Source: Hymenobacter edaphi (GTDB lineage Bacteria; Bacteroidota; Bacteroidia; Cytophagales; Hymenobacteraceae). Taken from it: 64,000 bases of DNA. The stretch covers positions 124,001-188,000 of the forward strand of contig NZ_QHKM01000008.1 in the NCBI RefSeq assembly GCF_003258365.1, written 5' to 3'. The notes below the pieces were generated by a model. The model ran no database searches and was not told where the DNA came from. It saw only the letters and a list, made by a program, of their open reading frames with translations. Positions 754-32,684 of the stretch are shown here, one piece after another; within the stretch, counting starts at the first letter, position 1; every line of letters starts with the position of its first letter. A program made the translations under genes and the position numbers.

Positions 754-1230
754 AACTCCTAGCCACAAAGATACCCCTAAAAGGCGGGCCGGGAAAGGAA
801 AGTTCGGCCGGTAGCGGCCCCCGCCCGCTCTGCCGATGCCAGGAGGCAGCGCCGAGTGAGCGGCCTACTTTGCGCGGCCCAAGCCCGTTGCTTATTCCGA
901 CTGGCACCGCCACGTTAAACCGTTACTGTTGGCCTTCCGCCACCGCGTCTGAGCTGCCGCGCCTCGAATAATTGCGTTCATGCCCTGCGCCTTGATGCAG
1001 TAGTCCAGCTAATGCGTTGCAGCAGCTCGTTTGCGGCAGCTCGTTTGCGGCAGATTTGCACAGCGTTGCTGATTTTTAGTAGGCACCAGTTCAACGCCAG
1101 CCAGCATATGTTGTAATTTTGCTAATTAAAATTTGTATTATAATATTGATTGCACTATATTATACCTGGATAGACAGGTTGCCCGCCGTGGTGGCGGGTG
1201 GCGACATCCCGGACCCCTAATCATTTCCCA
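754..1230. other. Divergent intergenic region, no gene recognised
   Basis: This spacer separates dnaX from the rightward membrane-protein gene. It holds the dnaX promoter, a two-copy 14-bp direct repeat around 1022-1052 (core CAGCTCGTTTGCGG), and a conspicuously AT-rich stretch at about 1105-1170 that probably carries the promoter of the rightward gene. Reading frames here look like shadows with no family resemblance, and no tRNA or other RNA gene was recognised. Confidence 0.5.
766..773 (-). promoter_or_regulatory. Bacteroidota -7 box for dnaX
   Basis: TATCTTTG on the minus strand matches the TAnnTTTG consensus exactly. It lies 13 nt upstream of the dnaX ATG, so the transcript leader would be very short. 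No clear TTTG -33 element was found at the usual distance. Confidence 0.5.
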
Positions 1231-1749
1231 ATGAACCCTACCTCTACGCTTTCCCGCGGGCTGCTGCTGGCCTATGTGCTGCTCACCTTTTATTGCCTGG
1301 GGGCCGCCATTTTCACCGAATGGGCCGAGCTGCGCAACGCGGCCGATGCCAGCTCTTACCTGAGTGCGGCCGATCTGGCGGCCTGGCAAATGGCCAGCAC
1401 CGACAACACCGCCCTGCTGCTAACCATTTTATCGGGCGTACAGACGGCCGCCCTGCTGGCCCTGGTCTGGCTGCTGCCCACTTCGGTGCCACGGGGTGTG
1501 CTGTGGGCCGCGCTGGCCTGCCACGTGGTAGTGTGGGGGCTGGGGCTGCTGGCCCGCCTGCCCGTGGGCAGCTTCGGCGGCGCCGACCCCGGCCTCGTCG
1601 ACCTGCTGGTGCGCAGCGGCTGGGGCCGCAAGCTGGTGCTGCTGATCGAAGCCCCGCTGGCCGCCTACATGGCCTTCCGCGCCTTCTGGCCGGCCCAGGC
1701 CGCCAGCCGTCCGGCCGCCGCACCCGGCAAAGCGCCGGTGCTCGGTTAA
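1231..1749 (+). CDS. Small integral membrane protein, unknown function
   Basis: The 172-residue protein has three or four hydrophobic segments: about 8-28, 62-84, 90-110, and a weaker one near 135-155. It begins with a short cytoplasmic-like N-terminus, MNPTSTLSRG, and ends in an Ala/Pro-rich tail. No catalytic motif is visible and I do not recognise the family. The ATG at 1231 was preferred to an in-frame start at 1198 because the hydrophobic N-terminus begins here and the upstream codons read as non-coding. A strong hairpin terminator follows at 1771. Confidence 0.75.
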   Translation: MNPTSTLSRGLLLAYVLLTFYCLGAAIFTEWAELRNAADASSYLSAADLAAWQMASTDNTALLLTILSGVQTAALLALVWLLPTSVPRGVLWAALACHVVVWGLGLLARLPVGSFGGADPGLVDLLVRSGWGRKLVLLIEAPLAAYMAFRAFWPAQAASRPAAAPGKAPVLG

Positions 1750-1770
1750 GGCCGGCCCGCACGCAAAGAC

Positions 1771-1825
1771 TTCCCGGAACGGGCGAATCGGCCGGGCCCG
1801 ATTCGCCCGTTCCGGGAAACTTTTT
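1771..1825 (+). terminator. Rho-independent terminator after the membrane-protein gene
   Basis: A 20-bp perfect inverted repeat (1771-1790 with 1799-1818, 8-nt loop) is followed by ACTTTTTA. It separates the membrane-protein transcript from the downstream tmRNA gene. Confidence 0.85.
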
Positions 1826-1858
1826 ACCCCCCTTCCACCGTTATTGCTCTGGTTGCGC

Positions 1859-1866
1859 TACCTTCG
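1859..1866 (+). promoter_or_regulatory. Probable -7 box of the tmRNA gene
   Basis: TACCTTCG matches the TAnnTTYG form. It sits about 40 nt upstream of the mature tmRNA 5' end, leaving room for a short leader that RNase P would remove. TTG triplets upstream (e.g. 1844) are closer than the usual -33 spacing, so the -33 assignment is uncertain. Confidence 0.4.
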
Positions 1867-2000
1867 CAGCCCGCTCCGCTCGGCGGGGCATCGTTCTTAC
1901 ACATTTGGGGCTGACCGGAATTGACAGCTCGTGCAAGTCACGAGTAAGCGTGTCGGGAGTTGGACGAATCTCCCGCTAAAAAATCATCCGAAAAATACCT

Positions 2001-2030
2001 GGCGACTACTCGTACGCCATGGCTGCCTAG
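2001..2030 (+). other. tmRNA tag-peptide reading frame GDYSYAMAA-stop
   Basis: GGC GAC TAC TCG TAC GCC ATG GCT GCC TAG encodes GDYSYAMAA and a stop; the Ala that precedes the tag comes from the charged tmRNA. The ending resembles other Bacteroidota tags (YAxAA), which serve as a protease degron. The frame sits in the expected place between the 5' tRNA-like half and the pseudoknot region. Confidence 0.93.
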
Positions 2031-2256
2031 TCTAGGTACTAAGCATTAGCCATCATCCCGCATCCGTCTTCCTTTTCACGGGTGAGTTCGGGGTGTCGAA
2101 AGCATTAGGATAGTCTGGGTGGCGCTGCGACGCCCAGGCGAAACTCTAGTAGATAAGGGTAACCTATAGGCCTGATGTGCGCCTCGGTTGCTTCGAAAAT
2201 TCAAGCATAGATACACACGTAGAAAGCTCGTCGTCTTCCTTGTCTGGACCAGGGTT

Positions 2257-2504
2257 CAAGATCGGACCTCCCACCCGGCGACGGATGGGTAATAAATCGG
2301 ATGAATTCAGGGAAAGCTACGTTGGGGGCTCTGCCGCCAATATGCCAATCCTGAGCCAAGCCGGCCGTACACGGCCGGAAGGTGCAGAGACTACCGGAGG
2401 GCTGAAGCGCCCTTAATAACCGGCTAGAGCGTCCGACTTCTCCTGCGAGGCAGGAGAAGAAGAGATAGTCCATGCCGCTGGGAAACCAGTGGAAATCAGT
2501 CAGG
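2257..2504 (+). mobile_element. Group I self-splicing intron inserted in the tmRNA T-loop
   Basis: This is a compact 248-nt ribozyme with no internal ORF. P1: exon GGGTT (2252-2256) pairs with the guide GACCT (2265-2269), giving the U·G pair at the 5' splice site. Other helices are P2 about 2270-2289, P3 2297-2303/2430-2436, P4 2306-2311/2350-2355, P6 2361-2367/2372-2378, P7 2389-2393/2466-2470 (GACTA/TAGTC), P8 2437-2445/2451-2459, and P9 2475-2481/2486-2492 with a GAAA loop. The intron ends in G2504. The core AATCCTGAGCCAAGCC and GGTGCAGAGACT closely resemble the tRNA-Leu(UAA) introns of cyanobacteria and plastids (subgroup IC3). Splicing itself is inferred from the structure. Confidence 0.95.
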
Positions 2505-2531
2505 CGACTCCCTGCAGCTCCACAACTCAAG

Positions 2532-2566
2532 AAAAGCCAATCTGCTCTGCAGGTTGGCTTTTTTAT
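2532..2566 (+). terminator. Rho-independent terminator of ssrA
   Basis: A 9-bp stem (AAAAGCCAA at 2532-2540 with TTGGCTTTT at 2554-2562) runs into a T-tract, starting 10 nt after the mature tmRNA end. It separates tmRNA transcription from the HNH gene. Confidence 0.88.
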
Positions 2567-2593: not shown

Positions 2594-3151
2594 ATGGAAC
2601 GGTACGTAGACTTGGTTTGTGCGAGTTGTGGCAAGGCGTTCCAGCGACGCGAAGCCAAACGCAACCAGCGGCTGGGGCGCCAGGCGTACTGCACCCGCGC
2701 CTGCAGCGGACGGGCCAGCCGGGAGAATCTGCCCGCGTACGATCCGGCCGCTACCTATGTCATTGCCCGTCACGCCGCCAACTACCGTGACCGGTATACC
2801 GGCTTTCGGGAACACCTGCGACGGTGCTGTCGTCGAGGCCACGACGCTACGACTACGCTGGATGACTTGGTGCAGCAGTGGGAGAACCAGCAGGGAAAAT
2901 GCCCCTATACCGGGCTGACATTGGTGCAGCCTGGCCATCATGCTTGCAACGACGTGATACACACGGCCTCCCTGGACCGGATTGATAGCCGGCTTGGCTA
3001 CGTGGCGGGCAACGTTCAGTTCGTGAGCATGGCTATCAATTATGCCAAGAACACGCTTACCCACACGGAGATGGTAATGCTTTGCCGCGTCATTGCGCAA
3101 CACTGGCAATTGGAAAACCCCACTGCCGCGCTCGGATTGGAGGAAGCATAG
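2594..3151 (+). CDS. HNH-type endonuclease, possible homing partner of the tmRNA intron
   Basis: The 185-residue protein has an N-terminal CxxC...CxxxC zinc-finger-like region (CASCGKAF ... YCTRACSG, about residues 9-37). Its C-terminal half has a phage/homing-type HNH signature: CPYTG, then SLDRIDSRLGYVAGNVQFVS, in which D-R-x-D and the GN-V-Q motif are typical. The gene lies 71 nt downstream of the tmRNA 3' end, past a terminator, and outside the intron. The frame extends upstream into the tmRNA, so ATG 2594 is the first plausible start. Endonuclease family is well supported; a role in intron mobility is inferred only from position. No integrase is nearby. Confidence 0.8.
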   Translation: MERYVDLVCASCGKAFQRREAKRNQRLGRQAYCTRACSGRASRENLPAYDPAATYVIARHAANYRDRYTGFREHLRRCCRRGHDATTTLDDLVQQWENQQGKCPYTGLTLVQPGHHACNDVIHTASLDRIDSRLGYVAGNVQFVSMAINYAKNTLTHTEMVMLCRVIAQHWQLENPTAALGLEEA

Positions 3152-3194
3152 CGTCAACCAAACGAACGTTCGGGTCCGGGTTGGGGCAATTTTC

Positions 3195-3202
3195 TACCTT
3201 CG
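3195..3202 (+). promoter_or_regulatory. -7 box for the trans-sulfuration gene
   Basis: TACCTTCG lies 28 nt upstream of the ATG at 3231. A TTCG at about 3170 stands roughly 22 nt upstream as a possible -33 element. It matches the TAnnTTYG pattern found before several genes in this window. Confidence 0.45.
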
Positions 3203-3230
3203 TAGACTGCCACTTCCCCATCCCACCCCC

Positions 3231-4544
3231 ATGAAAGTAAAAGAACTGCGCAAGCAAGCGGAGCTCAACGGGCGCGCCCTGAAGCCCGAGAGCCTGATGA
3301 TGAGCTACGGCTTCAACCCCGAGTGGAGCGAAAACGCCATCAAGTGCCCCATCTTCCAGACGTCGACGTTTGTCTTCAGCAAGGCCGAGGAAGGTAAGGC
3401 CTTTTTCGAGCTGGCCTACGGCCTGCGGCAGGCCGACCCCGGCGAGGAAATGGGCCTGATCTATTCGCGCCTGAACAACCCCTCGCTGGAAATCCTGGAG
3501 GACCGCCTCACCCTCTGGGACGGCGCCGAGGACGCCGCCGCCTTTGCCTCGGGCATGGCGGCCATCAGCACCTCGCTGCTGGCTCTGCTCAAGCCCGGCG
3601 ACGTGGTGCTGCACGCCGAGCCCGTGTACGGCGGCACCGATTTCTTCCTGAAAAACGTGCTGCCGCGCTTCGGCATCACCGCCGAAAGCTTCTCGCCCAC
3701 GCTGCCGGCCGACGAGCTGCTGGCCCGCGCCGAAGCCCTGGGCGAGCGGCTGGCCGTCCTCTACGTGGAAACGCCCGCCAACCCCACCAACCACCTCGTC
3801 GACCTCGACGCCTGCGTGGCCGCTGCCCGCCGGGCCGGCTCGGCCGAGCGGCCCTGCCGCGTGGTGGTCGACAATACTTTTCTGGGCCCGGTGTTTCAGC
3901 ACCCGCTCAAGCACGGCGCCGACCTGATTATCTACTCCGCCACCAAGTTCCTGGGCGGCCACTCCGACCTGATTGCCGGCGCGGCCCTGGGCTCGAAGGC
4001 GCTGATGAAGGAAGTGCGGGCCATGCGCACGTTCATGGGCACCATGTGCGACCCGAACACCGGCTGGATGCTCATGCGCAGCCTCGAAACGCTGAAGCTG
4101 CGTATGGAGCGCGCCGCCCACTCGGCCCAGATTATTGCCGACTGGCTGCGCGAGCATCCGCAGGTGACGCGCACCTACTACCTCGGCCACCTGGAGCACG
4201 ACGCGGCCCAGCAGGATATCTACCGCCGCCAGTGCCTTTCGCCCGGCTCCATGATTTCCTTCGACATCCGCGGCGGCGAGGCCGAAGCCTTTGCCTTCCT
4301 CAACAGCCTGCAGCTCATCAAGCTGGCCGTGAGCTTGGGCGGCACCGAAAGCCTGGCCGAGCACCCGGCCACCATGACGCACTCCGACATCGAGCCGGCC
4401 ACCCAGCGCGAAATGGGCATCAGCAGCAGCATGGTGCGCCTGAGCATCGGCGTGGAAGACCCGCAGGACCTGATGGCCGACCTCGCCCAGGCCTTTGCCA
4501 GCGTGGAAATTCCCGCCGAAGCGCAGTACGACGCCATGATTTAG
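3231..4544 (+). CDS. Cys/Met metabolism PLP-dependent trans-sulfuration enzyme (cystathionine gamma-synthase/lyase family)
   Basis: This 437-residue fold-type I PLP enzyme acts in cystathionine, homocysteine or methionine metabolism. Visible motifs are the N-terminal YSRLNNPSLEILEDRL segment, ASGMAAIS (phosphate-binding loop), the aromatic/PLP stacking region PVYGGTDFF, VDNTF (Asp binding the pyridine N), and IIYSATKFLGGHSD with the Schiff-base lysine. The C-terminus has SLGGTESLAEHPATMTHS and VRLSIGVED. Sequence alone cannot separate synthase, gamma-lyase and sulfhydrylase activities, so no symbol is given. ATG 3231 gives a normal family length. A PLP beta-synthase gene lies 30 kb away at 33941. 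Confidence 0.93.
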   Translation: MKVKELRKQAELNGRALKPESLMMSYGFNPEWSENAIKCPIFQTSTFVFSKAEEGKAFFELAYGLRQADPGEEMGLIYSRLNNPSLEILEDRLTLWDGAEDAAAFASGMAAISTSLLALLKPGDVVLHAEPVYGGTDFFLKNVLPRFGITAESFSPTLPADELLARAEALGERLAVLYVETPANPTNHLVDLDACVAAARRAGSAERPCRVVVDNTFLGPVFQHPLKHGADLIIYSATKFLGGHSDLIAGAALGSKALMKEVRAMRTFMGTMCDPNTGWMLMRSLETLKLRMERAAHSAQIIADWLREHPQVTRTYYLGHLEHDAAQQDIYRRQCLSPGSMISFDIRGGEAEAFAFLNSLQLIKLAVSLGGTESLAEHPATMTHSDIEPATQREMGISSSMVRLSIGVEDPQDLMADLAQAFASVEIPAEAQYDAMI

Positions 4545-32574: not shown

Positions 32575-32684
32575 TGTAAATACGATAAGTCCACAATGCC
32601 TACTCTAATTGCCGCTTTTCGGCGTCCGCGGGCTAGCGGGACAAACATAATTGAGAAAATCCAACAAAATGAATACTTGGGCTG

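Follow-up and report, generated by a model that had tools for sequence, protein, structure and literature searches.

The sole tmRNA gene (ssrA) over Rfam's cut-off in the Hymenobacter edaphi genome is split in its T-loop by a 248-nt group I intron and is followed, in the same sense, by an ORF for an HNH-type endonuclease whose viral relatives sit mostly beside tmRNA genes. In our preferred reading, to which we give a probability of about two in three, a tmRNA-dedicated homing endonuclease mobilises itself together with T-loop introns, and the host cassette was gained laterally. The intron alone is a further example of the tmRNA T-loop introns already published; the adjacent ORF, absent from the initial annotation, is the more novel part. 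Coordinates refer to the window, i.e., the whole stretch of 64,000 nucleotides that was analysed.

The tmRNA model of Rfam (RF00023) matched positions 1907–2276 of the forward strand with 71.7 bits (cut-off 47), and a search of the genome found no second ssrA over that cut-off besides the gene at 1907–2522. ARAGORN called no tmRNA in the window, nor in the uncut segment 1850–2600; once 2257–2504 had been removed from this segment, it called a tmRNA with the tag GDYSYAMAA. The 5' exon (1907–2256, forward strand) carries the tag frame with its stop codon at 2001–2030 (forward strand; letters checked) and ends at the TT of the T-loop. The 3' exon (2505–2522, forward strand; letters checked) supplies the remaining T-loop, the 3' strand of the T-stem, the acceptor strand CAGCTCC, which pairs with GGGGCTG at 1907–1913, and the discriminator A; CCA is not encoded. 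Joined together, the exons rebuild the T-stem, T-loop and acceptor, and the break falls at TT|CGACT (position 3). Thus, the Rfam match and the ARAGORN call on joined exons bear out the initial annotation of a host tmRNA with acceptor pairing and tag frame. A terminator-like hairpin followed by a T run was seen, by eye only, 3' of the gene (2534–2564, forward strand). Farther along the window, on the reverse strand, lies a DUF805b RNA element (32597–32632, 39.4 bits).

The exact boundaries of the insertion were read from an empty site in a sister genome of the same genus (G202), where the tmRNA is uninterrupted and reads CAGGGTTCGACTCCCTG. The G202 locus (L048) matches window positions 1103–2257 and 3152–4522, and the two matching pieces lie 137 bases apart there. 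The intron is therefore absent from it, as is most of the stretch from the end of the tmRNA to ~3151; the endonuclease ORF (2594–3151) is missing as well. Together with the ARAGORN call, this empty site confirms the claim that the T-arm is separated by 248 nt. Moreover, the 5' exon of the window is 96.3% identical to that of G202 and 79.0% identical to that of Hymenobacter sp. ASUV-10 (G016); between the introns of the window and G016, identity is 84.6%. With an exon close to that of G202 and an intron close to that of G016, the interrupted gene is the resident gene of the host. Given the patchy distribution described below, lateral gain of the intron and the ORF is more likely than repeated loss.

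The group I model (RF00028) matched 2232–2492 of the forward strand with 79.5 bits (E 1.5e-18; cut-off 50), so that both Rfam models score far above their cut-offs, and no further match to it was found elsewhere in the genome. The intron itself spans 2257–2504 (forward strand) and ends with a terminal G; no endonuclease gene was recognised inside it. P1 (2252–2269, forward strand) is formed by exon GGGUU (2252–2256) and guide GACCU (2265–2269), giving five base pairs closed by a U.G. In addition, UCG at 2262–2264 is able to pair with CGA, the first bases of exon 2 (2505–2507), as a possible P10; the helix names P1 and P3–P10 are assigned by analogy with group I introns in general.

The catalytic core, from P3 to P7 (2287–2471, forward strand), was delimited with an alignment (A3) of seven cores from the window, G016 and five crAss-like phages, its covariation and the model built on it (R1), which gives the window core 195.9 bits with the window itself among the rows building the model. 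Changes on both sides were observed in 22 of the 37 drawn pairs, a number reached by none of 500 shuffles and by no slid version of the structure (maximum 8). Overall, 96.1% of the cells pair in the drawn structure versus 31.3–48.6% in slid versions, an advantage favoured by the structure having been drawn from the window sequence. The P7 pairs are invariant across the seven cores and carry no covariation information. The identification of the T-loop insert as a group I intron was thereby upheld by covariance models, splice-site pairings and the empty site; the U.G at the 5' splice site, the terminal G and the core helices that had been described are intact, and the core contains covarying pairs.

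Judging from these features, the intron should self-splice and yield a working tmRNA. Since the genome holds one ssrA and one SmpB gene, it is plausible that ribosome rescue depends on splicing. Three RF-1-domain proteins are encoded as well; the third (G000, the window genome, contig C41:1309–1677, 65.2 bits) is a candidate ArfB-like rescue factor that might serve as a backup for tmRNA.

The downstream ORF (2594–3151, forward strand) encodes 185 aa and is proposed, from its translation, PHROGs matches and structure model, to be a free-standing homing endonuclease of HNH type. Searches of PHROGs matched endonuclease families at E 8.3e-21 and 5.4e-14, the latter labelled endonuclease VII. NCBIfam and PDB sequence searches gave no match, and Pfam gave no HNH match and nothing below E 0.14, that match being unrelated. 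An AlphaFold2 model built with 44 relatives reached a mean pLDDT of 88.0 and a pTM of 0.64; in a fold search of the PDB, PacI (3ldy) was the sole match below 1e-3 (E 2.4e-4, TM 0.52 by target length, 23% identity), T4 endonuclease VII appeared at E 1.5, and Cas9 HNH domains were weakly matched. Invariant residues include C9, C12, C33, C37, D128, Y136 and N140, with the motif DRID..GY..GN; where an HNH motif normally begins with His, Arg is present. Membership of the DHHRN (Endo VII) class was considered and rejected, as the protein reads ASLDRIDS..GY..GN with no DHDH motif.

Among 204 genomes of the family, the ORF protein was found in two, the window genome and G016, both of which carry the endonuclease gene after the split tmRNA and in the same orientation. 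RF00028 matched in 13 of the 204, and the match lies in tmRNA only in these same two, so that host co-occurrence of intron and enzyme amounts to two cases, a small sample. At the RF00028 loci of the other 11 genomes no tmRNA exceeded the cut-off; by eye, nine of these introns lie within a tRNA reading CAU (L011–L014, L016, L018–L021), several being overlapped by HNH-like ORFs (e.g., L020 1165–1563), and two (L015, L017) occur in another context. A tmRNA over the cut-off was detected in 198 of the 204 genomes, five more giving weak matches and one none.

Across the class (395 genomes surveyed), the ORF protein was present in the window genome only, and R1 matched 11 genomes, the strongest besides the window being G204, G574 and G215. 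G204 has a tmRNA intron at position 3, with no relative of the ORF protein within the 3.2-kb locus; universal coupling of intron and enzyme was therefore rejected. In the same locus (L192), a 391-aa ORF lies downstream on the opposite strand, carries VVECKTTK and looks PD-(D/E)XK nuclease-like by eye. G574 and G215 were rejected as tmRNA introns since they occur, by eye, in tRNA-like contexts.

The best named relatives of the ORF protein belong to crAss-like phages (36.6–45.3% identity). The phage DNA closest to the intron also comes from crAss-like phages, then from the psbA introns of cyanophages and from Flavobacterium phages, and plasmids gave no match to it. Scanning viral contigs, we analysed 80 of the 109 loci holding relatives of the enzyme (51 clusters at ~90%). 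An intact tmRNA lies beside the enzyme gene in 44/80, called by ARAGORN in 25 loci and by RF00023 in 19 further ones, and a related group I intron (R1 match) occurs in 27/80; Rfam scans covered the 28 loci lacking both an ARAGORN tmRNA and an R1 match, as well as 19 of the 27 R1 loci. Two of the remaining loci gave partial tmRNA matches and seven none. By eye, a permuted tmRNA lies downstream of the enzyme gene in L061 and L067; in L076, L079 and L104 the contig starts so close to this gene that a tmRNA might be missing beyond the edge; L107, situated in a tRNA array, and L115 show no tmRNA. Linkage to tmRNA as called by software thus amounts to 69/80 (44 intact and 25 rebuilt split genes), and to 75/80 when the truncated L082 and L087, the two partial matches and the two cases seen by eye are added.

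The five-pair T-stem was rebuilt from the exon halves in 25 of the 26 viral intron loci tested, the exception, L082, being cut off, and also in the window, G016, cr6_1 and cr128_1; in L087, outside this set, the 3' half was seen. By eye, the break in the 25 rebuilt tmRNAs falls at position 3 in 14 and at position 2 in 11. The idea of a single T-loop position for this enzyme clade was rejected, as both occur. In 11 of these 25 loci (truncated L082 and L087 omitted), the enzyme gene lies within the intron in antisense orientation; it follows the tmRNA in the other 14, antisense in 11 and, as in the window, sense in three (L063, L065, L066). Beside the 44 intact tmRNAs the gene is sense in 40, at a gap of 2–115 nt (median 46). 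Endonuclease gene and intron match overlap tail to tail in cr6_1 and cr128_1, with the T-arm halves on either side, which places the gene antisense inside an intron of ~870 nt. If a seven-base loop is assumed, cr6_1, L063 and L087 have A in place of G immediately before exon 2.

Several other arrangements were encountered in the viral contigs. L054 (cr56_1), L135, L061 and L067 hold, by eye, circularly permuted tmRNA-like genes with no intron, the endonuclease gene lying beside or between the two pieces; being split or permuted, some phage tmRNA genes are missed by ARAGORN. Upstream of tmRNA-like T-arm pieces of crAss-like phages, RAGATH RNAs (RAGATH-7-assoc, -20 and -22) were matched in L055 (4827–4948), L054 (5792–5889) and L058 (2545–2745), and might belong to the phage tmRNA genes. 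GOLLD RNA occurs on the opposite strand near the tmRNA–endonuclease locus in L062, L063, L064, L065 and L076. Endonuclease genes of another, classic HNH type lie antisense in tmRNA introns of L058, L059 and L060 (cr1_1, cr118_1 and cr4_1) and of L143–L145, at T-loop position 7 in L058 and 8 in the others (by eye); enzyme type may thus track T-loop position.

As control queries, two single proteins yielded two loci each, so four distant relatives were aligned and the alignment served as the query; an HNH protein from Hymenobacter tRNA introns found no viral relative. In the distant sister clade so obtained, ARAGORN called a tmRNA in none of 29 loci, and none of the 20 loci examined with Rfam had a match over the cut-off. 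Like for like, ARAGORN alone gives 25/80 in the main set versus 0/29 in the sister clade. Some sister-clade relatives are located within polymerase genes or between them, like intron endonucleases. In a tree of 54 proteins, one per cluster (L076 and L115, of <150 aa, excluded), the window and G016 proteins are sisters (100/99). They group at 94/89, below the tool's star, with L062–L065, four phage proteins whose genes follow a tmRNA in sense orientation, an intron being present in two cases and absent in two; this placement is uncertain owing to deviating composition. The intron label requires five changes on the tree.

Taken together, these data probably point, with slightly less assurance than for the reading as a whole, to a phage endonuclease family that is dedicated to tmRNA and moves itself and T-loop introns among phage tmRNAs and into host ssrA. 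From the genomic patterns we infer splicing, cleavage, the cut site and the direction of transfer. A group I intron would have entered the host ssrA, where its self-splicing would leave a working tmRNA, and the downstream ORF would be a free-standing HNH-type homing endonuclease of this family. The enzyme would cut tmRNA genes that lack the intron, at the T-loop or close to it, and repair of the break from the donor would copy in intron and enzyme gene together, the donor being protected since the intron would split the cut site. The cassette would then have reached the host chromosome laterally, most likely from phages. The absence of both parts from G202, their presence in the same two host genomes and the tmRNA linkage in phages favour this pair. 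Several observations count against it: the enzyme gene lies beside an intron-free tmRNA in 44 viral loci, which the intron thus does not protect; the introns occur at position 2 or 3, with no single exact site; G204 has the intron without the enzyme, L107 and L115 have the enzyme but show no tmRNA, and the first HNH His is Arg.

The same 44 loci speak for independent homing, in which the enzyme homes next to tmRNA genes by itself and cuts elsewhere in the tmRNA or its 3' flank, the introns are separate passengers co-copied when the donor has them, and cut site and insertion site differ. The five changes of the intron label and the enzyme-free intron of G204 also speak for it. However, all 27 viral introns match one intron model, the 25 rebuilt ones occupy T-loop sites no more than one nucleotide apart, 11 loci have the enzyme gene within the intron, and, in the six cases seen by eye, positions 7 and 8 go with a different HNH type. 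We regard independent homing as unlikely, though it is the most serious competitor of the coupled homing proposed above.

Two further explanations bear on the host locus. tmRNA genes are common integration sites, according to the available text of PMC11915505, and an unrelated phage gene could have landed at this hot spot next to an ORF-less tmRNA intron with no functional link between them; this is improbable, as the same pair recurs in two genera and 27/80 viral loci, against 0/29 in the sister-clade control. Still harder to sustain is a broken gene, in which the intron has lost the ability to splice and left a dead tmRNA, or in which misassembly produced the split. The single ssrA and the third RF-1-domain protein, which might back up rescue, speak for it; yet the core helices, the 5' splice-site U.G and the terminal G are intact, the 5' exon is 96.3% identical to that of the sister, G016 has the same arrangement and SmpB is kept, and we consider such decay very improbable.

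If coupled homing is correct, collaborative homing takes in an RNA gene as well as a cellular chromosome, and the RNA of ribosome rescue is a selfish-DNA target common to phages and hosts. A dedicated endonuclease targeting the T-loop may also explain why tmRNA introns crowd in one loop. Moreover, the locus would provide a marker for phage–host intron exchange, and a single protein and a single plasmid would suffice to test the origin of tmRNA introns.

In the available text of PMC11915505, 883 intron-form tmRNAs are reported, all interrupted in the T-loop, at positions 2, 3, 7 and 8, which substantiates the statement in the initial annotation that such introns are known in other bacteria; position 3 is reported there from class Bacteroidia only. 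The window intron resembles them in being a T-loop group I intron with U before it, a terminal G, position 3 and the same class, and most of them likewise have no internal endonuclease gene. As far as that text goes, LAGLIDADG genes occur inside 23/844 introns, a neighbouring HNH gene is not mentioned and no intron >700 bp is listed, whereas the phage introns here reach ~870 nt. tmRNA genes were reported in 402 of 18,146 phage genomes in the available text of PMC9004378. Collaborative homing has been described (PMC6083498, PMC3984707, PMC10448857), and the word tmRNA is absent from the available parts of these papers. Among the papers listed in the literature searches, none described a homing endonuclease linked to tmRNA; these searches covered few subscription papers and no preprints, so that this is weak evidence of absence.

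The nearest parallel is F-CphI/psbA of cyanophage S-PM2 where, in the portion of PMC6083498 available, a free-standing endonuclease gene likewise adjoins a gene with an intron; a 59-nt stretch (79.7%) is common to the window intron and the psbA intron of S-PM2. Unlike in the F-CphI system as presented there, the target here is an RNA gene and host-chromosome cases are present. Moreover, F-CphI carries the DHHRN (Endo VII) motif, described in the same text as DHDH-type between CX2-4C and CX2C, and its cleavage was demonstrated, whereas the window protein has no such motif and its cleavage is putative. PacI, the closest fold, is an HNH restriction endonuclease whose biology differs from that of the proposed homing enzyme. 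Overall, an intron paired with a tmRNA-dedicated endonuclease would extend collaborative homing, strongly as a genomic association read from sequences and with a mechanism that we propose.
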